Shown: positions 633 through 14,948 of the stretch, piece after piece
Numbering within the stretch: position 1 is the stretch's first letter
Layout: each line of letters starts with the position of its first letter
DNA from: Nocardia grenadensis NBRC 108939
GTDB taxonomy: Bacteria; Actinomycetota; Actinomycetes; Mycobacteriales; Mycobacteriaceae
Direction of reading: 5' to 3'
Length of the DNA stretch: 64,000 bases
NCBI RefSeq assembly: GCF_001613445.1
Contig: NZ_BDCJ01000001.1
Location: 124,001-188,000, forward strand
The notes under the pieces: model-generated
Databases searched by the model: none
What the model saw: the letters and a program-made list of their open reading frames with translations, nothing else
What the model was told of the DNA's origin: nothing
Program-made: the position numbers and the translations under genes

Positions 633-992
633 TCAGCGGCAGCAGTTCGGGTCGAGCACGGTGCACAGTGCGGTCAGAGCGTCGCGACGGGCCTGATGGA
701 GCACGCTCATACCGCGGCGTTCGGAGTCGATGAATCCGGCTTTACGGAGCTGGGTGAGGTGGTGGCTGACAGTCGATTCCGATAGGCCGACCGCCGCGGC
801 GAGTTCGCCGCCGGTGCGGCCGGTGTCGGGGTCGGCCAGTAGCAGGGAGATGAGTTTGACCCGGACCGGGTCGGCCAAAGCCTTCAGCCGCAGGGCGACG
901 TGCAGGGCCGCCTCGTCGTCGACCGGTCCGGCGGCCACCGGGGCGCAGCAGACGGGGGCGGTGATATCGAGGACGGGCAGCGCTTTCGGCAT
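633..992 (-). CDS. arsR: ArsR/SmtB-family arsenic-responsive repressor
   Basis: A 119-residue winged-helix repressor. The recognition helix region is AAAVGLSESTVSHHLTQLRKAG (about residues 65-86; the core is ESTVSHHL). A vicinal Cys pair lies at C15-C16, the position used by the corynebacterial ArsR type for trivalent arsenic. The usual third ligand near residue 55 is not a cysteine here. Instead C110 and a C117-C118 pair sit at the C-terminus. It is divergent from the cadI-acr3-arsC genes, and a GTCGAA-type inverted repeat lies between them, so it very probably represses that operon and itself until arsenite or antimonite binds. Confidence 0.93.
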   Translation of the reverse strand: MPKALPVLDITAPVCCAPVAAGPVDDEAALHVALRLKALADPVRVKLISLLLADPDTGRTGGELAAAVGLSESTVSHHLTQLRKAGFIDSERRGMSVLHQARRDALTALCTVLDPNCCR

Positions 993-1015
993 GAAGGCGA
1001 TCCTACCCGGACTTA

Positions 1016-1030
1016 TTGACTTATGTCGAA
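1016..1030. promoter_or_regulatory. Candidate ArsR operator
   Basis: The stretch TTGAC-TTAT-GTCGAA (1016-1030) is a near-perfect inverted repeat: TTGAC on one side and GTCGAA (reverse complement TTCGAC) on the other. It lies 24 bp upstream of the arsR start and about 57 bp upstream of the cadI-like start, in the shared divergent promoter region. This is the expected place and shape for an ArsR/SmtB dimer site. Assignment is by position and symmetry. Confidence 0.6.
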
Positions 1031-1086
1031 AAGGTGGCAGACTGGCCGCCGTCAGCTATTCGATATACGTCACACAGGTGGTGGTC

Positions 1087-1584
1087 ATGATGTCCCGGAT
1101 ACAGCTCGCCCTCGATGTCGACGATCTGGAAACCGCGGTCCAGTTCTATTCGGCCTTGTTCGGCACCGCACCCGCGAAGGTGAAACCCGGCTACGCCAAC
1201 TTCGCGATCACCGAACCGCCACTGAAGCTGGTGCTCATCGAGAATCCCGGCCACGGCGGCAGCCTGAATCACCTCGGCGTCGAGGTCGAGTCCTCGGAGA
1301 AAGTCCATTCCGAGATCGCCCGGCTGTCGGAGGCCGGCTTGTTCACCGAGGAGCAGATCGCGACCACATGTTGCTTCGCCACCCAGGACAAGGCGTGGGT
1401 GACCGGGCCGGGCGGAGAGCGGTGGGAGGTCTACGCGGTACTGGCCGATTCGGACTCCTTCGGCACGGCTCCGGAGTTCGCCGAGGTCTCCGACGAGGAA
1501 GCGGTACAGGCATGCTGCGGTACCGACGGCCGCGGCGAGTCCGAAACCGCGTGCTGCGCCCCTGCCGCCGGCGCCGCCCGATGA
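1087..1584 (+). CDS. cadI: CadI/ArsI-like glyoxalase-fold protein of the arsenic locus
   Basis: A 165-residue vicinal oxygen chelate (glyoxalase/bleomycin-resistance fold) protein. It has the signature TTCCFATQDKAWVTGPGGE then WEVY (about residues 96-120), typical of cadmium-inducible CadI and the ArsI C-As lyase family. In ArsI the vicinal Cys pair in this segment binds trivalent organoarsenicals, which the enzyme demethylates with Fe(II) and O2. The start is the first of two adjacent ATGs; an upstream extension to 730 would run back through arsR and is not credible. Two further Cys pairs in the tail (ACCG and ACCA) are unusual. First gene of the ars operon. Confidence 0.9.
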   Translation: MMSRIQLALDVDDLETAVQFYSALFGTAPAKVKPGYANFAITEPPLKLVLIENPGHGGSLNHLGVEVESSEKVHSEIARLSEAGLFTEEQIATTCCFATQDKAWVTGPGGERWEVYAVLADSDSFGTAPEFAEVSDEEAVQACCGTDGRGESETACCAPAAGAAR

Positions 1585-1615
1585 CCGCGCCACGGGGAAG
1601 CGGGGCGGTGCGGGG

Positions 1616-2680
1616 GTGAGCACCGTGGTGCAGGCGCCGGCGCCGCGGTTGGCGATGCCGGATCGGCTGTTGCCGGTCTGGATCGGTGTCGCCATGGCCG
1701 CGGGGCTCGCGCTGGGCCGCCTGGTGCCCGGCCTGGGCGGGGCATTGTCGGCGGTGGAGGTCGAGGGGGTCTCGCTGCCGATCGCGGCCGGCCTGCTGAT
1801 CATGATGTATCCAGTGCTGGCCGGGGTCCGCTACGACCGTCTGTACACCGTCGCCGGCGACCGGCGCCTGCTCGCGGGCTCGCTGCTGCTGAACTGGGTG
1901 CTCGGGCCCGCAGTGATGTTCGCGCTGGCGTGGCTGCTGCTACCGGACCTGCCCGCCTACCGGACCGGGCTGATCATCGTCGGCTTGGCGCGCTGCATCG
2001 CGATGGTCATCATCTGGAACGACCTCGCCTGCGGGGACCGGGAAGCCGCCGCGGTGCTGGTCGCGATCAACTCGATATTCCAGGTGCTCATGTTCGCGGT
2101 CCTGGGCTGGTTCTACCTCTCCGCGTTGCCGGGATGGCTCGGCCGGGAGCAGGCCACGATCGAGGCCTCCCCGGTCGATATCGCGATCTCGGTGCTGGTG
2201 TTCCTCGGAATCCCGCTGGCCGCCGGATATCTCACCCGCCGAATCGGGGAGAGAACCCGCGGCCGGGACTGGTACGAAACCCGGCTACTTCCGAAGGTCG
2301 GGCCATGGGCGCGCTACGGGCTGCTGTTCACCATCGTGATCCTGTTCGCACTGCAAGGAGAGCAGATCACCGGCCGGCCGCTCGATGTCGCGCGGATCGC
2401 GGTACCGCTGCTGAGCTACTTCGCGCTCATGTGGGGCGGCGGTATCGTCCTCGGCGCGGTCCTGCGGCTCGGGTACGCGCGTACCGTGACAATGGCGTTC
2501 ACCGCGGCGGGCAACAACTTCGAGCTCGCCATCGCCGTCGCGATCGCCACCTACGGAGCAACCTCCGGCCAGGCCCTGGCCGGTGTGGTCGGCCCGTTGA
2601 TCGAGGTCCCGGTACTGCTTGCCCTGGTCTATCTCTCCCTCGCGTTGCGCCGGCACCTCTCTCCGGCACCGGTCGGCTGA
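1616..2680 (+). CDS. acr3: ACR3-family arsenite efflux permease
   Basis: A 354-residue integral membrane protein with about ten hydrophobic segments. It has the ACR3 signature LARCIAMVIIWNDLACGD (about residues 122-139), whose first cysteine is the conserved one needed for arsenite transport in this family. A second conserved stretch is TAAGNNFELAIAVAIA (about 301-316). It exports As(III) or Sb(III) driven by proton motive force, completing arsenate detoxification with arsC. The GTG start at 1616 follows a G-rich Shine-Dalgarno-like sequence, 31 bp after the cadI stop, so the genes are co-transcribed. No substitution stands out. Confidence 0.93.
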   Translation: MSTVVQAPAPRLAMPDRLLPVWIGVAMAAGLALGRLVPGLGGALSAVEVEGVSLPIAAGLLIMMYPVLAGVRYDRLYTVAGDRRLLAGSLLLNWVLGPAVMFALAWLLLPDLPAYRTGLIIVGLARCIAMVIIWNDLACGDREAAAVLVAINSIFQVLMFAVLGWFYLSALPGWLGREQATIEASPVDIAISVLVFLGIPLAAGYLTRRIGERTRGRDWYETRLLPKVGPWARYGLLFTIVILFALQGEQITGRPLDVARIAVPLLSYFALMWGGGIVLGAVLRLGYARTVTMAFTAAGNNFELAIAVAIATYGATSGQALAGVVGPLIEVPVLLALVYLSLALRRHLSPAPVG

Positions 2681-2695
2681 AAGGTCTCCGCTCCC

Positions 2696-3112
2696 ATGTC
2701 CTCCGATACCCCCACCGTGCTGTTCGTATGCGTCCACAACGCCGGACGCTCCCAGATGGCCGCCGCGTTCCTCACCCATCTCGCCGGGGGCCGGGTCCGG
2801 GTCCGCTCCGCAGGCACCGCGCCCACCGACACGATCAACCCGGCCGCGGTCGAGGCGATGCGCGAGGCCGGGATCGATATCTCCACCCGGGCCCCGACCG
2901 CGCTGACCGCGGGCACCGTCGAATTCTCCGACGTGGTGATCACCATGGGCTGTGGGGACGCCTGCCCCTCCTTCCCCGGAACCCGCTACCTCGACTGGCA
3001 ACTCGACGACCCCGCCGGCGCCGGCCTCGCGCTCGTGCGCCGGATCCGCGACGATATCGAGTACCGGGTCCGTGGTCTGCTCACCGAACTCGGAATCCCC
3101 GCGCGCGCGTAA
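2696..3112 (+). CDS. arsC: Arsenate reductase of the low-molecular-weight phosphatase fold (mycothiol-linked type)
   Basis: A 138-residue protein with the catalytic loop VCVHNAGRSQ (C-x5-R-S, Cys about residue 12). It also has TMGCGDACP (about 82-90) and the general-acid loop DWQLDDP (about 97-103). These features match the thioredoxin- or mycothiol-dependent ArsC/LMW-PTP family. In actinobacteria such proteins form an arseno-mycothiol adduct or reduce arsenate to arsenite with mycothiol and mycoredoxin. It starts 15 bp after acr3, as last gene of the ars operon, and supplies As(III) to the exporter. Which electron donor is used cannot be read from the sequence. Confidence 0.93.
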   Translation: MSSDTPTVLFVCVHNAGRSQMAAAFLTHLAGGRVRVRSAGTAPTDTINPAAVEAMREAGIDISTRAPTALTAGTVEFSDVVITMGCGDACPSFPGTRYLDWQLDDPAGAGLALVRRIRDDIEYRVRGLLTELGIPARA

Positions 3113-8184: not shown

Positions 8185-9147
8185 TCACACGGGTGTCGTG
8201 GCGGGGGTGAGGATGCCGGATCGGCCGTTGCGGCGGGCCCACAGCGCTCGGGCGAGCGCCGATCCGGCGACGTGCGCGCGGCGGGCACGTCCGACGGTGG
8301 CCCGCTCGGTGAAGACCGCGAAGTCGAGATCCTCTATCCGGTCGAGGATTTCGCCGTAGAGGACGGCAGCGGTTGCCACGCAGGGGCGTGAGACGGGGTG
8401 CAGCAGATCGATGCCCGGCGTGGCCCGGGCATACCACTGGCGGGCGACGGCATGCTGGGCGGCCAGGGCCGCACGGACGCGGGTATCGGTGCGGCGATGC
8501 GCGCGGCACCATTGCAGCAGGTCCCGGTCGACGCGGAAGGCGGCCAGTTCGTCGGCCGGTAGGTACACCCGCCCGCGGTCGAGGTCTTCGGCGATATCGC
8601 GCAGAAAGTTGGTGAGCTGGAACGCTTTACCGAGCGCGGCCGCATACGGCGCGGCTTCGGGCTGTGGGCAGACGGCGCCGAGAACGGGCAGCACCTGCAA
8701 ACCGATCACTTCGGCCGAGCCGTACACATAGCGGTCCAGGGCCGGACGGTCCGGGTAGTCGGTGACGGTCAGATCCATCCGCATGGAGTCCAGGAAAGCC
8801 CGGAAGAGATCGCTGTCGATGGTGTATCGGGACGCGGTGTGACCCACCGCGGCGACAACCGGCGCGCCCTGCCCGGGGCTATCGAGACCACTCGACAGTT
8901 GCCGGGTCAGCTCGTCCAGACGTGCCCGCGGCGTGCCCGCGGCAGGGTCGGGTAGGTCGACGATATCGTCGGCCCAGCGGGCGAAGCCGTAGAGGGCGTG
9001 GATCGCCGGGCGTTGCGCGGGGGCGAGCAGTCGGGTCGCGAGGAAGAAGGTGCGGCCGTGGCGGGCATTGAGGTCGCGGCAGTACCGGTAGGCCCGACGC
9101 AGGCACGGGTCCGTGATCGCGGCGGCGTCGAGTTCGCTGCCGATCAT
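8185..9147 (-). CDS. crtB: Phytoene synthase
   Basis: A 320-residue trans-isoprenyl diphosphate head-to-head synthase (squalene/phytoene synthase family). It condenses two GGPP into phytoene. The two Asp-rich Mg2+ sites are visible: YGFARWADDIVDLPD (about residues 53-67) and LTNFLRDIAEDLDRGRVYLP (about 177-196). The overlap with crtI (ATGA; crtI stop 9144-9146, crtB ATG 9147) shows translational coupling. It is the last gene of a litR-crtE-crtI-crtB set. Length is usual for the family. Confidence 0.93.
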   Translation of the reverse strand: MIGSELDAAAITDPCLRRAYRYCRDLNARHGRTFFLATRLLAPAQRPAIHALYGFARWADDIVDLPDPAAGTPRARLDELTRQLSSGLDSPGQGAPVVAAVGHTASRYTIDSDLFRAFLDSMRMDLTVTDYPDRPALDRYVYGSAEVIGLQVLPVLGAVCPQPEAAPYAAALGKAFQLTNFLRDIAEDLDRGRVYLPADELAAFRVDRDLLQWCRAHRRTDTRVRAALAAQHAVARQWYARATPGIDLLHPVSRPCVATAAVLYGEILDRIEDLDFAVFTERATVGRARRAHVAGSALARALWARRNGRSGILTPATTPV

Positions 9148-10664
9148 GAACGAGCACCCCCGGTGTGCAGGGGTGCGTCCGGTCGGCCCGCGGCCAGTGT
9201 GCCGGTGATTCGGTCGGCGGCCAGCCGCCCGGAGATCAACACCGGTGGTACGCCGACCCCGGGCACGGTCGAACTGCCCGCGAGCACGACATTGTCGAGG
9301 CCGCGGATCATATTGGCCGGCCGCAACGGTCCGGTCTGCGACAGCGTGTGCGCCAGCGCGAAAGGGCTACCCGCGAGCATGCCCTGGCGCGCCCAATCCG
9401 CCGGTGTGATCACGCGGAGTATCTCCACTCCGGTCAAGGGGCGGGGCAGGCGCTGGTTCACCGTGGCGACGAGTTCGTCCGCGTAGGCGGGCCCGAGCCG
9501 GTCCCAGTCGATCGGTGCCCGTTCCAGATTGGGCGCTGGCGCGAGGATGGACAGCAACTCGCGTCCGGGCGGGGCCAGCAGCGTATCGGTGGCGGTGGGG
9601 CGCGTGACGAGCAGTGACGGGTCCCGCATGGGTTGCCCGCGGGTGAGGATGTCGTCGAAGGTCCGCCGCCACGCGCGTCCGAACAGCAGCGAATGATGTG
9701 CCAGATGTGGGGCGGGATCGCTACCGAGGTGCACCACTACGGCCGAAGGCGACGCGATGGGCCGTTTCGGGCGTCGTGAGTGGTGACCGATCAGCCGGTA
9801 CGCGTGGTGCAGTTCGGTGGTGACGACGGCCGCGTCGCACTCGATATCCCGCCCGTCGGAAGTGGTGACGGCTTCGATCCGGGACCCCGAACGCCGAGTG
9901 GATTCCGCGGTGACTCCGTAGTGGAAACGCACCCCGGCCGTGGTCGCGGCGGCGGCGAGGGCGTCGGGTAGCGCGCGCATTCCGCCCAGCGGGAAGAAGA
10001 CTCCGCCGATGGTGTCCATGTAGGCGATCACGGCGTAGGCGGCCAGCGCCCGCTGCGGTGGGACCCCGGCGTAGAGCGACTGGAAGGTGAAGAGTCTGCG
10101 CACGTCCGGGTCGTGCAGATGGTCGGCGACCGCCCGGTCCCAGCGGCGTAGCCCGCCGGCCAGGACCAGCTGCCCCGCTGCCGGGGTCATCAGCGACATC
10201 GGTGAATCGACATTGGCGGCGATGAAGTGATCGAATTCGGTGTGGTACAGGTGGGTCAGCCAGCGCCGTAATTTCAGATAACCGTCCGCCTCACGGGATC
10301 CGGCGAAATCGGTTATCGCCGCGGCCATGGGTTCGGGGCCGGTATGCAGGTCGAGGGTGCGGCCATCGGCGAAATGGGCCCGGTAGGCCGGGTCGATGGG
10401 GACGAGGCGCAGATGATCGTCGGTGTCGGCGCCGACGGCGGCGAACACCTCGTCGATCAGGTCGGGCATGGTGAGCACGGTCGGTCCCAGATCGAGGCGG
10501 TAGTCACCGATATCGGCTCGGGCGGCGCGGCCCCCGGGGACCGGTTCACGTTCGAGGACGGTGACCGCGACCCCGCGGCCGGCCAGATGGATCGCGGCCG
10601 ATAGTCCGGCCAGCCCCGCGCCGATCACCACGACATGATCACAGCGACCTTCGACGCCGCGCAT
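9144..10664 (-). CDS. crtI: Phytoene desaturase (CrtI type)
   Basis: A 506-residue FAD-dependent desaturase that introduces double bases of unsaturation into phytoene, giving neurosporene or lycopene. The N-terminal dinucleotide fold is VVIGAGLAGLSAAIHLAGRG followed by VLEREPVPGGRAARADIGDY (about residues 12-52). The C-terminal family motif is STVPGVGVPPVLISGRLAAD (about 470-490). Start ATG at 10664 is 12 bp after the crtE stop; its own stop overlaps crtB. The number of desaturation steps cannot be told from sequence. Confidence 0.93.
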   Translation of the reverse strand: MRGVEGRCDHVVVIGAGLAGLSAAIHLAGRGVAVTVLEREPVPGGRAARADIGDYRLDLGPTVLTMPDLIDEVFAAVGADTDDHLRLVPIDPAYRAHFADGRTLDLHTGPEPMAAAITDFAGSREADGYLKLRRWLTHLYHTEFDHFIAANVDSPMSLMTPAAGQLVLAGGLRRWDRAVADHLHDPDVRRLFTFQSLYAGVPPQRALAAYAVIAYMDTIGGVFFPLGGMRALPDALAAAATTAGVRFHYGVTAESTRRSGSRIEAVTTSDGRDIECDAAVVTTELHHAYRLIGHHSRRPKRPIASPSAVVVHLGSDPAPHLAHHSLLFGRAWRRTFDDILTRGQPMRDPSLLVTRPTATDTLLAPPGRELLSILAPAPNLERAPIDWDRLGPAYADELVATVNQRLPRPLTGVEILRVITPADWARQGMLAGSPFALAHTLSQTGPLRPANMIRGLDNVVLAGSSTVPGVGVPPVLISGRLAADRITGTLAAGRPDAPLHTGGARS

Positions 10665-10676
10665 CGTCTTCTCCTC

Positions 10677-11795
10677 TCAGGATTCGCGGACGGTACAGCG
10701 GGCGGCCATACCGTCCAGTAGTTCGCGCCGGACGTCGGGAAGTGGCGCGGCGGCCAGTGCGTGGCGGGCGTCGGTGACCCGGTTGTCGATCATCGCCTCG
10801 ATGCGCGCCGGGGCGCCGGTGGCGGTGATCAGGGCGCGAACCCGGGCGACCTCGGACGAGCCGAGCGTCGGCGCCTGCAGCAGGGTGCACAGTTCGCGGT
10901 GCAGGCGTGAGCCGGCCATCTCGATCGCCGCCACGATCAAGGTGGACGCCTTGTGCTGGGCGATATCGTTATCGGGTTTTCCGGTGATCTCCGGGAGGCC
11001 GTAGACGCCGAGGATATCGTCGCGCAGCTGGAAGGCTTCGCCGATCGCCCGGCCGTATTCGGTCAGCGCGGCCGTCACGCCCGGGTCGCAGTCCGCCATC
11101 GTCGCCCCCAGGACGAGGGGCCATTTCACGGTGTAGTTGCCGGATTTGGCGCGTGCGATCGCCAGCACCCCGTCCAGGGTGGGTGTGCTGCGGATATCGT
11201 TGCTCAGATCGGCGAATTGACCCAGGGCCAGTTCGATCCGCATGCGATCGTAATGGGGCCGGACCCGGGCCAGCGCGGATTCGTCCACTCCACTCTCGCG
11301 CAGCATTTGCTCGGCCCAGATCAGGCATATATCGCCCAGGAGCGTGGCCGCGGATTCGCCGAAGCGGCGCGGGCAACCGGGCAGTCCGTTCCGTTCGTGC
11401 CGGTCGGCGAGCCGTCGGTGCGCGGTGGGCTCACCCCGGCGCCGGGCGGATTCGTCCATCACATCGTCTTGGAGCAGCGCGAACGCGTGCAACAGTTCCA
11501 GTGCCGCGCTGGCCCGTAACGCTGTGTCGTCCTCGGGGGCGCCGCACAACCACCCCGCGTACATGAAGGCCGACCGCACGCATTTGCCGCCGCCGACGTA
11601 TTGCCACAGCACATGCTGCACCGTCGGCCGCACGGCCGATTCGACGGACCGCCGCTGCACGAACTCGGCCAGCTCGGCCAGCACCCGCGCGCGGACCGTC
11701 TGCTGCCACTCGGCTGTCGGCTGCTCGGGTAGCCCGGCCCCACCGTGGGGCCTGGCGCGCGGTGCGCGGTCGGATCCCACGATCTGTGTGTTCAT
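10677..11795 (-). CDS. crtE: Geranylgeranyl diphosphate synthase (polyprenyl synthetase)
   Basis: A 372-residue trans-prenyl diphosphate synthase. The first Asp-rich motif is LLQDDVMDES (about residue 105), and the second region is EAFQLRDDILGVYG, with DDILG rather than a full DDxxD, as is common in actinobacterial CrtE. It makes the C20 precursor for CrtB. The ATG at 11795 (MNTQIVGSD) follows GAGGAG closely. Longer frames run back through litR and are not credible. Promoter repeats at 11852-11873 lie 57 bp upstream. First gene of the crtE-crtI-crtB operon. Confidence 0.92.
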   Translation of the reverse strand: MNTQIVGSDRAPRARPHGGAGLPEQPTAEWQQTVRARVLAELAEFVQRRSVESAVRPTVQHVLWQYVGGGKCVRSAFMYAGWLCGAPEDDTALRASAALELLHAFALLQDDVMDESARRRGEPTAHRRLADRHERNGLPGCPRRFGESAATLLGDICLIWAEQMLRESGVDESALARVRPHYDRMRIELALGQFADLSNDIRSTPTLDGVLAIARAKSGNYTVKWPLVLGATMADCDPGVTAALTEYGRAIGEAFQLRDDILGVYGLPEITGKPDNDIAQHKASTLIVAAIEMAGSRLHRELCTLLQAPTLGSSEVARVRALITATGAPARIEAMIDNRVTDARHALAAAPLPDVRRELLDGMAARCTVRES

Positions 11796-11851
11796 CACAG
11801 CTCCTCGAGTCCATTGCCGGGTGTGGGTCACATACCATCGTAGACCTTCTT

Positions 11852-11873
11852 CGATGCGTAAACGATGCGTAGT
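11852..11873. promoter_or_regulatory. Two 11-bp-spaced direct repeats before crtE, candidate LitR operator
   Basis: CGATGCGTA occurs at 11852-11860 and again at 11863-11871, exactly 11 bp apart. They lie just downstream of the litR stop and 57 bp upstream of the crtE start. CarH/LitR-type B12 repressors bind as tetramers to operators made of 11-bp direct repeats. A related CGATGCG also occurs at 12906-12912, in front of litR itself. The link to LitR is inference from repeat geometry and location. Confidence 0.55.
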
Positions 11874-12892
11874 CAGAGAGTATGCACGGACCGGACGATG
11901 TCGCCGAGCGCGTCCTCGAGCGAGTCGACCCGGCGGGCGCCGGGGAATACGACGGCCACCGGCCAGCCGGGGCCGGCCAGCAACAGGCGGGCCGGTGCGG
12001 GGCATCCCGGCGGGATCGGGACCGGGGACGCCGTCCGCTCGGTCTGGGACCACAGCACCACCACCGGCTCGCGCGGCTGCCGGGTGATGGCGGCAGCCAG
12101 CGCGTCGGCGGGGAGCGCGGCGCCGAGCAGCAGGGCCGGTATGCCGGCTTCGGTCAGCGCGGCCCGCAGCACTTCCAGCGGCAGGACATGGTTCTCGCCG
12201 GCGGTACAGGCCAGCAGCACCGGGGCGCGCCCGACGGTGTACCGGATGGGTGGAACCGCCCGGTGCAATGCGGTGGTGACGGCCCAGGACAGCACATGTT
12301 CCACCTCGATCAATCCCTGGTCGCCGGTCTGCCGGTCGACGATGTCGGCGAACACCGGGCGACACAGCCGGTTCCAGGTGCTCACCACACCGAAATGCGC
12401 GACGTGGGTGGTGCAGATCGCCAGGAGTTCCGCCGCGTCGAGCCGGTCGGCGGCCGCCAGGGCGGGCCCCACGTCGCCGAAAGTGGGCGCCGGTTCGGCT
12501 GCGGCGCGCGCGGCCTTCGCGGCGGTGACGGGGGCGACTCCGGCGCGAACGAGATCGACCATGCGGCCCAGCAACGCCACGTCGCTCGGCGTGTAGTACC
12601 GGTGTTCGCCTGGATTGTGGCGGGGCGGCCCCAAGCCGTAGCGCTGGTTCCAGCTGCGCAGGGTCGCCACCGGAATATCGAGGGCCTGGGCCACCGTACC
12701 GACGGTGAACCCGATCCCGGAATCGTCTGCCGGGTCGGTCTCGCGCACGGCCGCACACACCTTTCCCACGCAGGACGGCTGGAGCTGGCTGCGCCTCCTC
12801 TCGTGTGCCGGTGGTCCAGCCGGTGCCGGGCGCGGGCGGGCAGCCGCCTCGTCCCGTAGCCGATCCCGGAATTGCCACCTGTGAGGCTTCAC
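11873..12892 (-). CDS. litR: MerR-type light/B12-responsive regulator (LitR/CarH family)
   Basis: A 339-residue protein. It has an N-terminal MerR helix-turn-helix (FTVGTVAQALDIPVATLRSW, then RYGLGPPRHNPGEHRYYTPS; about residues 62-105) and a C-terminal cobalamin-binding domain. The B12 part shows the Trp...Glu-His arrangement (STWNRLC ... LIEVEHVLSW) and GENH, matching the E-x-H segment carrying the lower-ligand His in CarH. Such proteins repress carotenoid genes in the dark with adenosylcobalamin and release on light. The first about 50 residues are basic and may not be translated; a GTG at 12748 is an alternative start. It is upstream of and in line with crtE. Confidence 0.88.
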   Translation of the reverse strand: MKPHRWQFRDRLRDEAAARPRPAPAGPPAHERRRSQLQPSCVGKVCAAVRETDPADDSGIGFTVGTVAQALDIPVATLRSWNQRYGLGPPRHNPGEHRYYTPSDVALLGRMVDLVRAGVAPVTAAKAARAAAEPAPTFGDVGPALAAADRLDAAELLAICTTHVAHFGVVSTWNRLCRPVFADIVDRQTGDQGLIEVEHVLSWAVTTALHRAVPPIRYTVGRAPVLLACTAGENHVLPLEVLRAALTEAGIPALLLGAALPADALAAAITRQPREPVVVLWSQTERTASPVPIPPGCPAPARLLLAGPGWPVAVVFPGARRVDSLEDALGDIVRSVHTL

Positions 12893-13199
12893 GCTACACG
12901 CCTAGCGATGCGAAATCGACTCAAGGGTGAATGGGCGGTCGACGCACGACGCGCTCGGCGGCCACCGGGGCACCCCGCCCGTGAGTCGGCCACTCGTCAG
13001 CACACCGATTTTCACTCGAGGGTGGCCGCGGGGGTGCGATGATCTCGGTCGTCGGCCGGTTCGTCACGAGGGTGACCGCCGTCCGTCACGGCGTCCGGGG
13101 ACGGTGGTCTCCGAACGGCGAGAGGGCACCCGAGTAACCCGTATTCGATACCGACGGTGTGCTCCCAACTGATCGAACGGCGTAGGGAACGAGAGCGTA
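12893..13199. promoter_or_regulatory. Divergent promoter region between litR and the DUF3556 gene
   Basis: No gene is seen in these 307 bases. A CGATGCG element at 12906-12912 matches the core of the crtE-proximal repeats, and sits 13 bp upstream of the longest litR start. Two related 12-mers (ACTCAAGGGTGA near 12919 and ACTCGAGGGTGG near 13015) are further candidates. A GAGAG site precedes the GTG at 13200. Confidence 0.35.
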
Positions 13200-14948
13200 G
13201 TGAGCGGAACAGATCGATTGTTCGGCATCCTCCGGCCGAACCTGCCGGTGGTCGATTTCGACGAATGGAGCAGCGGTACGCGAGCGGAAAAGCTCCGGCC
13301 CATGGCGCGGCACTGGGCCGAGGTCGGTTTCGGCACGCCGGTGCTGCTGCACCTGTGCTATGTCGTCAAGATCGGCCTCTACGTCCTCGGCGGATGGTTG
13401 TTCGCGCTGACGACCGAAGGTATCGACGGATTCACCGCGGTCGGTACCTGGTGGTCGGAGCCGATCGTCTTCCAGAAGGTCGTGCTGTTCACGATGCTCT
13501 TCGAGGTGGTCGGGCTGGGCTGCGGGTTCGGTCCGCTCAACAACAGGTTCTTCCCGCCCATGGGCTCGATCCTGTACTGGTTGCGCCCCGGCACCATCCG
13601 CCTGCCACCCTGGCCGGATCGGGTGCCCGGCACCCGCGGTACCCGCCGCACACTGTTCGAAGTGGTGTTGTACGCGGCGCTGCTGGTCATGCTGCTGGTG
13701 GCGCTGGTGTCCAACGGAACCGGACCGGACGCGGCACTCGACACGACCGTCGGCGTCCTGCCGGTCTGGCAGATCGCGACGGTGCTCGGTCTGCTCGCCG
13801 TGCTGGGACTACGCGACAAGACCATCTTCCTGGCGGCGCGCGGTGAGGTGTACGCGACACTCGCGGTCACGTTCCTCTTCGGCGGCGCGGACCTGATCGT
13901 CGGCGCCAAGATCGTTTTCGTCGTCATCTGGATCGGTGCGGCGGTCTCGAAGCTGAACAAACATTTCCCGTTCGTGGTGTCGACGATGATGTCGAACAGT
14001 CCGGTGGTGCGGCCCCGGGCTCTCAAACGGCTTTTCTTCGAACGTTTTCCCGACGATCTGCGGCCGGGACGGTTGTCGCGGTGGTTCGCCCACGGCGGGA
14101 CCGCGGTCGAGATGGGTGCGCCGCTGGTGCTGTTCTTCGCGCACGGCGGCTGGCCCACGGCGGTCGCCGCCACCGCGCTGATTGGCTTCCACCTGGTGAT
14201 CCTCACCGCGATACCGATGGGTGTACCGCTGGAGTGGAACGTCTTCATGATCTTCGGTGTGCTGACACTGTTCGTCGCGCACGCCGATGTGGGCCTGTCC
14301 GCGGTGACCAACCCGGTGCCGCCGGTCCTGCTGCTGATCGTGCTCGCCGGAGCGGTCACCCTGGGAAATCTGTTCCCGCGCAAGGTGTCGTTCCTGCCCG
14401 GGATGCGCTACTACGCGGGCAACTGGGATACCACGCTCTGGTGTATCCGGCCCTCGGCCGACGCGAAGATCCGGCAGGGGATCGTCGCCGTCGCGACCAT
14501 GCCGGCCGCGCAGTTGCAACGGTTCTACGGAAGTCCGGAGGCCGCGCAGATCCCGCTGTATCTCGGCTATGCCTTCCGGGCCTTCAACACCCACGGCAAG
14601 GCGCTGTTCACGCTCGCGCATCGCGCGATGGCCGATCAGGACGAGGCCGACTATGTTCTGACCGACGGCGAGCGCATCTGCTCGACCGCCCTCGGCTGGA
14701 ACTTCGGTGACGGTCATCTGCACAGCGAGCAGCTGATCGCCGCCCTCCAGCAGCGCTGCGGGTTCGAGCCGGGGGAAGTCCGGGTTGTGCTGCTGGATGC
14801 GCAACCCATCCATCGGCAGACCCAGCGTTACCGGCTCGTGGACGCCGCGACCGGGGAATTCGAGAGCGGTTCGGTGCGGGTCGCCGATATGGTCGTGCGC
14901 CAGCCCTGGGACGACGATGTGCCGGTGTACCCGGATCGCCGGTCCTGA
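13200..14948 (+). CDS. DUF3556 transmembrane protein
   Basis: A 582-residue protein with about ten hydrophobic helices between residues 45 and 400, and a soluble C-terminal part (about 405-582). It resembles the DUF3556 family, found mainly in mycobacteria, nocardiae and relatives. Recognisable stretches are GFGTPVLLHLCYVVKIGLYV, CGFGPLNNRFFPPMGSILYW and SFLPGMRYYAGNWDTTLWC. No biochemical role is known to me. The GTG start at 13200 follows GAGAGCGTA. It is divergent from litR; a carotenoid or membrane-lipid role is possible but rests on position only. Confidence 0.88.
   Translation: MSGTDRLFGILRPNLPVVDFDEWSSGTRAEKLRPMARHWAEVGFGTPVLLHLCYVVKIGLYVLGGWLFALTTEGIDGFTAVGTWWSEPIVFQKVVLFTMLFEVVGLGCGFGPLNNRFFPPMGSILYWLRPGTIRLPPWPDRVPGTRGTRRTLFEVVLYAALLVMLLVALVSNGTGPDAALDTTVGVLPVWQIATVLGLLAVLGLRDKTIFLAARGEVYATLAVTFLFGGADLIVGAKIVFVVIWIGAAVSKLNKHFPFVVSTMMSNSPVVRPRALKRLFFERFPDDLRPGRLSRWFAHGGTAVEMGAPLVLFFAHGGWPTAVAATALIGFHLVILTAIPMGVPLEWNVFMIFGVLTLFVAHADVGLSAVTNPVPPVLLLIVLAGAVTLGNLFPRKVSFLPGMRYYAGNWDTTLWCIRPSADAKIRQGIVAVATMPAAQLQRFYGSPEAAQIPLYLGYAFRAFNTHGKALFTLAHRAMADQDEADYVLTDGERICSTALGWNFGDGHLHSEQLIAALQQRCGFEPGEVRVVLLDAQPIHRQTQRYRLVDAATGEFESGSVRVADMVVRQPWDDDVPVYPDRRS

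Follow-up and report, generated by a model that had tools for sequence, protein, structure and literature searches.

The closest described relatives of the regulator considered here are the class I LitR proteins, such as CarH of Thermus thermophilus and Bacillus megaterium, in which a MerR-type helix-turn-helix (HTH) is followed by a four-helix bundle and a Rossmann cobalamin domain. Trp131 of CarH is named as a key adenosylcobalamin (AdoCbl) residue and belongs to the light signature GxxW (PMC11796333), and published operators consist of three or four tandem repeats of the form nnnnTnnACAn (PMC9304148). In myxobacteria, loss of this Trp with the B12 motif kept marks CarA, which works without B12, against CarH; CarA of Myxococcus xanthus also lacks the four residues flanking the Trp and is reported to occur only in Cystobacterineae and always with CarH (PMC9304148). 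Streptomyces LitR is described as B12-based and acts through the sigma factor LitS (PMC12705666), and the class II LitR of Pseudomonas has the four-helix bundle only, is LOV-switched and is without AdoCbl sensing; the light-inducible genes of P. putida include ufaM (PMC9758184). We recognised no published account of Nocardia LitR, of the operator described below or of a Trp-less LitR type in the open-licence literature, and the Streptomyces operator may already be in print.

The LitR encoded in the Nocardia grenadensis window (the whole 64,000-nucleotide stretch of DNA analysed) shares features with each of these proteins and differs from each. Like class I CarH it has all three domains, the Glu-His (EH) pair and the ligand His, and its gene lies by tandem 11-bp direct repeats in the same register, with adjoining carotenoid genes as putative targets. 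It differs from CarH in having Gln for Trp131 and Thr for His132, and in a repeat that reads TnnGCATCG instead of TnnACA and is present in two copies, against the three or four published for CarH (PMC9304148). Like CarA it keeps EH and, apparently, the B12 motif, has lost the Trp and has crt genes as putative targets, but the spacing from Gln188 to EH is intact, with no loss of flanking residues, its clade is actinobacterial, and the three N. grenadensis paralogs are all Gln-type. With actinobacterial LitR such as that of Streptomyces it shares a clade in our tree and the presence of two 11-bp repeats, of GCATCG/GCGTCG form before litR of the genus designated g22, although there the Trp is kept and, in Streptomyces, LitS is involved, whereas no sigma gene was noticed by the window litR. 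Class II LitR belongs to the same LitR lineage but has no counterpart of the intact Rossmann domain and ligand His found here.

A CarH-type regulator at a carotenoid locus

The window comes from a 6.5-Mb genome of the genus Nocardia and carries litR followed on the same strand by crtE, crtI and crtB (Table 1), with 77 bp separating the stop codon of litR from the ATG of crtE. No second litR or carH adjoins litR within the window, no adjoining sigma-factor gene was noticed among ORFs judged by eye, and a scan of the region found no sigma70-like promoter near the operator. Divergent from litR is a gene for a large DUF3556 membrane protein (13200-14948, + strand), and arsenic-resistance-like ORFs (ArsR-like, ACR3-like and ArsC-like) were recognised, by eye only, at 633-3112.

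Table 1. Features of the litR-crt locus in window coordinates; LitR residue numbers follow the 339-aa ORF
Feature	Position	Strand	Details
crtB, squalene/phytoene synthase family	8185..9147	-	PF00494 E 6.8e-69
crtI, phytoene desaturase family	9144..10664	-	TIGR02734 476 bits vs cut-off 238
crtE, polyprenyl diphosphate synthase	10677..11795	-	PF00348 E 1.5e-43
crtE-side putative operator	11850..11871	-	tandem 11-bp repeats TACGCATCGTT + TACGCATCGAA; kept in relatives
litR	11873..12892	-	MerR HTH + CarH-type cobalamin-domain regulator; longest ORF 339 aa
His235 of GENH, at cobalt-ligand His177 place of Thermus CarH	12188..12190	-	
Glu198-His199, EH of Wx9EH	12296..12301	-	
Gln188 codon, at Trp131 place of Thermus CarH	12329..12331	-	
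MerR DNA-binding domain, residues 62-121	12530..12709	-	recognition helix RSWNQRY
litR-side putative operator	12902..12923	-	first repeat degenerate, core TGAGTCG; second repeat, core CGCATCG; offset 11 bp

The HTH of LitR matches PF13411 (E 1.3e-12, 48.1 bits against a cut-off of 21.6), and comparison with Thermus CarH chains gives E about 1e-13. An AlphaFold model (pLDDT 83, with residues 1-20 and 25-53 under 50) and its structure matches contain the helix bundle and Rossmann cobalamin domain of the CarH type: Foldseek ranks full-length Thermus CarH best by E-value (5c8f, 1.2e-13; also 5c8e), and 8c73_C aligns with Z 18.6 and rmsd 2.8 over 192 residues. The first-pass annotation, made from the letters of the window, had called the protein a CarH/LitR-type regulator, and the fold bears this out. 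For the sensor domain, however, photocobilins (Z 19.2-19.6), CarH (18.6), a methanogen corrinoid protein (17.9; 3ezx) and methionine synthase (16.8) are all close, so the fold is that of a cobalamin-type sensor domain and does not by itself fix the subfamily. The window LitR has no Pfam B12-binding match and scores 58 bits with the NCBIfam CarH model, whose cut-off of 400 is passed by 0 of 246 actinobacterial genomes. An adenosyltransferase (PF02572) is encoded in the N. grenadensis genome.

Paired 11-bp repeats on both sides of litR

Between litR and crtE the sequence CGATGCGTA occurs at 11852-11860 and again at 11863-11871 (+ strand), an offset of exactly 11 bp, just as the first-pass annotation had reported, and the window contains no other exact copy. 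With one mismatch allowed, the window has 14 matches against 21 expected, which is not above chance, so the signal rests on spacing and place. In simulation, an exact 9-mer repeat at distance 11 within a 77-bp intergenic stretch has a probability of 0.00045, rising to 0.013 for any distance from 9 to 30; the simulations yield 0.92 such exact repeats in 64 kb, and one further run is present in the window, at 8921-8924. Judged from the window alone the repeat is suggestive only, and what places it well above chance is its conservation in relatives.

Read along crtE (- strand), the pair TACGCATCGTT-TACGCATCGAA runs from 11871 to 11850, leaving 1 base to the stop codon of litR (11873-11875) and 54 bases to the ATG of crtE (11795). 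On the other side of litR, the CGATGCG core that the annotation had placed at 12906 is real (CGATGCGAA), and a weaker partner 11 bp away had been missed: on the - strand TGAGTCG (12923-12917) is followed by CGCATCG (12912-12906). GTG 12892, the start of the longest litR ORF, lies just 9 bases past this pair, most of residues 1-53 are modelled with low confidence, and a GGGAAAG-like sequence stands ahead of GTG 12760; for these reasons the true start is probably GTG 12760, giving a protein of 295 aa.

Conservation of the pair in Nocardia and its family

In the flanks of 107 litR homologs at 97 loci, a set that excludes L004, L215 and six short loci replaced by longer versions, exact TGCATCG cores form 24 pairs at 11 bp and a single pair at the remaining distances between 7 and 44 taken together. 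If one mismatch is allowed in each core, there are 110 pairs at 11 bp, in 82 of the loci, and no other distance has more than 11; a reversed-pattern control gives 0 at 11 bp. Later counts additionally exclude L010, which is near-identical to L009. In these counts 68 of 81 Nocardia loci contain TGCATCG-like core pairs at 11 bp, 94 pairs in all (each other distance from 8 to 30 gives 9 or fewer), leaving 13 loci without a strict pair, and 10 of 12 loci from other genera of the family contain 10 such pairs. The loci belong to related genomes and are not independent samples. A count of any repeated 8-mer in the flanks does not single out 11 bp: its 239 repeats far exceed those at 10 (43) and 12 (123) but are matched at 18 (243) and 27 (228), distances divisible by three, as coding DNA would give. 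Over 102 non-identical sites the consensus reads TGCATCG(A/T)TTn-YGCATC(G/A)(T/A)T. Its core positions are conserved by construction (sites were picked at no more than one mismatch per core), which does not apply to the T's that lie between the cores and after them; outside both repeats there is scant conservation.

At the scale of whole genomes, 132 Nocardia genomes have a litR match, a few of these matches being weak (E above 1e-5), and 101 of the 132 contain the strict pair GCRTCGWTTNYGCATC, a pattern derived from sites already seen. The 16 genomes that lack a litR match contain it in 0 cases, and read backwards it matches once across all 148. A looser pattern, drawn from five sites of the N. 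grenadensis genome itself, is unspecific, matching 147 of 148 genomes, with 50 matches in 15 of the 16 that have no litR. A chance repeat is rejected on the strength of this conservation, of the spacing, and of the 16 litR-less genomes, none of which has the strict pair.

By hand count from our table, 17 of the 19 Nocardia loci that include a crt gene have the strict site between that gene and litR (L001, L009, L012, L014, L015, L021, L180-L183, L185, L188 and L216-L220); in L011 and L019 the stretch from litR to crtE has just a degenerate pair. The first-pass annotation had named lack of conservation with this operon as one result that would speak against its reading, and we found the opposite. 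The arrangement is not rigid: the orientation of the repeats relative to crtE varies among species, and in L181-L183, L185 and L188 the litR-crtE gap is 0.7-1 kb, with the site closer to litR. In L013, L017 and L020 a site with a decayed second repeat comes after litR and no crtE was found in the sequence examined, the L013 contig ending nearby.

Several loci depart from these arrangements. In L218 (6969-7242) crtI comes after litR with an exact-core two-repeat site between them, and no crtE match was detected. Two litR paralogs are convergent, tail to tail, in L024, L025, L028, L033, L175, L179 and L202, and six of these seven, L175 being the exception, showed no strict site in the sequence examined. 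In L299, from Nocardia fusca NBRC 14340, the litR ortholog is apparently interrupted, with the sensor region partly missing and the frame broken, while the tandem repeat and the crtE start look intact, making this a natural strain without full LitR.

A putative operator common to actinobacterial LitR

Set in the CarH register, the second repeat of the window reads TnnGCATCG, so that the T and CA coincide with the published repeat and A is replaced by G; the 11-bp tandem layout of CarH operators is present and the nnnnTnnACAn sequence is not. Across the 81 Nocardia loci TnnACA pairs at 11 bp number just 2 and are not enriched, and the Nocardia core itself recurs at 22 bp only 3 times, from which we take the site to have two repeats rather than three. 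In group W, 32 loci comprising the CarH-model matches from the class together with L171 and L172 (and including L131, whose residue is Gln), there are 19 TnnACA pairs at 11 bp, 16 at 22 bp and at most 6 elsewhere, all from 9 of the 32 loci. The Trp-bearing homologs L171 and L172 have a TGCATAG pair 11 bp apart (at 162 and 165, respectively), more than 1 kb from litR.

Genus g22, which appears to be Streptomyces-like and has a crtI-crtB-litR locus, separates the operator from the state of the protein. Its LitR keeps the Trp in 35 of 35 loci examined, and a two-repeat GCATCG/GCGTCG pair is present in 21 of these; in 18 of the 21 it precedes the litR match by no more than 100 bp. For this pair the next-highest distance, 27 bp (12 pairs), comes nearly entirely from one conserved stretch away from the litR promoter. 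TnnACA pairs at 11 bp number 0 in the 35 loci. The operator therefore belongs to the actinobacterial LitR branch, and an origin of the operator change in the loss of Trp is ruled out. The annotation was right that the operator sequence differs from the published repeat, yet this is not special to the N. grenadensis operon. In g22 (L230, L233, L251, L258, L260, L266 and others) the repeats often stand just before litR between CAAC-like and CGTAT-like boxes. We take these boxes to resemble a promoter of the ECF sigma type, with the operator in its spacer.

A conserved Gln in the putative cobalamin pocket

The annotation had also credited the regulator with the GENH and Trp/Glu-His features of the CarH cobalamin domain; Glu198-His199 and His235 of GENH are indeed kept, but the Trp is absent, Gln188 standing in its place, and the light signature GxxW reads VxxQ. 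The nine-residue spacing from Gln188 to EH is retained, as is GxxxP (Gly257...Pro261). Against the B12 motif D/ExHx2G/P-x41-SxT/V-x22-27-GG, ENHVLP and SQT are present with a spacing of 43 rather than 41, followed after 22 residues by GP rather than GG.

All 88 Nocardia proteins have Gln at the Trp131 place, and all 88 keep EH and the ligand His. In 14 proteins from other genera of the family the residue is Gln in 9, Arg in 2, His in 1 and Trp in 2, so that the 100 Trp-less proteins of the family comprise 97 with Gln and three with Arg, Arg and His. Among 31 proteins from the best 30 CarH-model matches in the class, a choice that favours canonical CarH, 30 have Trp and 1 has Gln; this count omits the matches L232, L234, L238, L239, L241 and L242, which are like only distant CarH and mostly in the sensor part. 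In a 79-row tree the Trp-less proteins require two changes, one of which accounts for a single clade of 45 rows (SH-aLRT 99), and in a 65-row tree the Trp-less clade has 31 rows (SH-aLRT 95) and a sister group holding the Trp-bearing g22 proteins, both being quick trees with SH-aLRT support only and long branches. If the criterion from myxobacteria is applied (PMC9304148), the loss of Trp makes the window LitR CarA-like, and B12-dependent light sensing cannot be taken as given.

Elsewhere in the N. grenadensis genome, L244 (C9, 404000-412600) encodes Wx9EH (WASDRLTVAQEH) and GEWH (GxxH), with no RxWxxRY motif in the ORF read. Going by these motifs, it is a candidate Trp-type cobalamin sensor without that DNA-binding helix, beside three Gln-type regulators.

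Paralogs and the putative regulon

The three N. grenadensis litR paralogs encode full-length MerR-type proteins. Of the 6 exact matches to the looser pattern in this genome, 5 are no more than about 0.6 kb away from one of the three paralogs, a partly circular result since the pattern was drawn from those five; the sixth (C24) is inside a nucleotidyltransferase-like ORF, judged by eye, and was taken as chance. The third paralog (L214 3717-9202, C18) has a tandem site on each side. One lies between a lipocalin gene and a DUF4267-like gene (below the Pfam cut-off), with litR3 next, and the other is ahead of genes that encode an FAD amine oxidase, a DUF1365 protein and a CMAS-type methyltransferase. 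UfaO, an enzyme that makes furan fatty acids together with UfaM and UfaD, has DUF1365 as its domain (PMC7380195), and the amine oxidase would then correspond to UfaD.

Such neighbours recur. In the short stretches examined at 81 Nocardia loci, litR has lipocalin genes as neighbours at 31, CMAS at 11, amine oxidase at 4 and DUF1365 at 2, at least one of these four at 41, and crt genes at 19; an amine oxidase gene also adjoins 5 of the 32 group-W loci (L121, L123, L128, L130 and L132). By association only, these neighbours suggest a role in photo-oxidative stress. With the pattern used, no LOV motif was found in the PAS_9 loci of the N. grenadensis genome (5 matches) or in the other loci then examined; a LOV partner for LitR is not supported in those loci, to which the search was confined.

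Proposed mechanism and alternatives

In our view the repeats very probably serve as operators through which LitR controls crtEIB and its own gene. In the mechanism that we propose, LitR, as a MerR-type regulator of the CarH/LitR lineage, would bind the two-repeat 11-bp operator before crtE-crtI-crtB and before its own gene, probably as a dimer with one HTH per repeat, and thereby control promoter access, until a signal releases its hold and carotenoid synthesis is turned on. Binding, repression and the dimer are inferred by analogy with CarH. That the repeats might instead serve another factor or be a promoter element finds some encouragement in the boxes that flank many g22 sites before litR. 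We regard it as very unlikely, as the sites adjoin litR homologs with varied neighbours (crt, lipocalin, amine oxidase), in both orientations and with a fixed 11-bp spacing, the strict pair is missing from 16 of 16 litR-less Nocardia genomes, and TnnACA repeats take their place at homologs of the Thermus CarH clade.

The nature of the signal is a separate matter, and the readings of it overlap with the operator statement, so that their likelihoods are not to be summed with it. If LitR were a true AdoCbl-dependent CarH photoreceptor, Gln would stand in for Trp131, AdoCbl would build a DNA-binding oligomer in the dark, and light would break it. The retention of EH, ligand His, GxxxP and the CarH fold, the adenosyltransferase in the genome, and the description of Streptomyces LitR as B12-based (PMC12705666), given that g22 has the same operator, are all consistent with this, but the residue regarded as key (PMC11796333) is the very one replaced here, and g22 LitR keeps it in 35 of 35 loci; we consider this reading possible but somewhat doubtful. 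On the other hand, LitR could be a B12-independent repressor in the manner of CarA, a stable dimer freed by a partner protein or a stress signal. Loss of Trp with the B12 motif kept is the stated mark of CarA (PMC9304148), two repeats, not three or more, fit a dimer, the Trp loss is one event for the whole clade, and the Trp-bearing L244 could, speculatively, be a light-sensing partner. Against this, the invariance of EH and His in 88 of 88 Nocardia proteins suggests a pocket under selection, the replaced Trp is not drifting (97 of 100 are Gln), and no LOV motif was present in the loci examined to that point, and this possibility too we hold with some doubt.

Our view of the signal is divided between these two and a third reading, to which we give a little below even chances: the Nocardiaceae and some relatives would have a monophyletic, paralog-rich branch of CarH-like regulators, with a conserved Gln for Trp131 and invariant EH and ligand His, whose changed upper face senses another cobalamin form, redox or light by other chemistry, and which, through a two-repeat GCATCG operator common to Trp-bearing actinobacterial LitR, controls carotenoid, lipocalin and furan-fatty-acid-type genes. 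Most likely LitR still binds a cobalamin in the pocket whose His is retained and responds to light or to photo-oxidative stress, and most likely its mechanism differs from the Thermus one, where Trp131 meets the adenosyl group. Taken together, the first-pass observation of tandem 11-bp direct repeats of the CarH/LitR kind is confirmed, such repeats being conserved beside such genes, and the interpretation then attached to it is partly supported: light-controlled carotenoids are plausible, and AdoCbl photosensing is a possibility held with some doubt.

Implications

A concrete operator code for actinobacterial LitR makes its regulons readable from genomes. The natural substitution series within one clade, in which Trp gives way to Gln and sometimes to His or Arg while the rest of the pocket is kept, can test which part of the pocket gives light sensitivity. 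With three N. grenadensis paralogs beside the same type of site, cross-regulation between carotenoids and membrane-protective lipids becomes testable in this organism.
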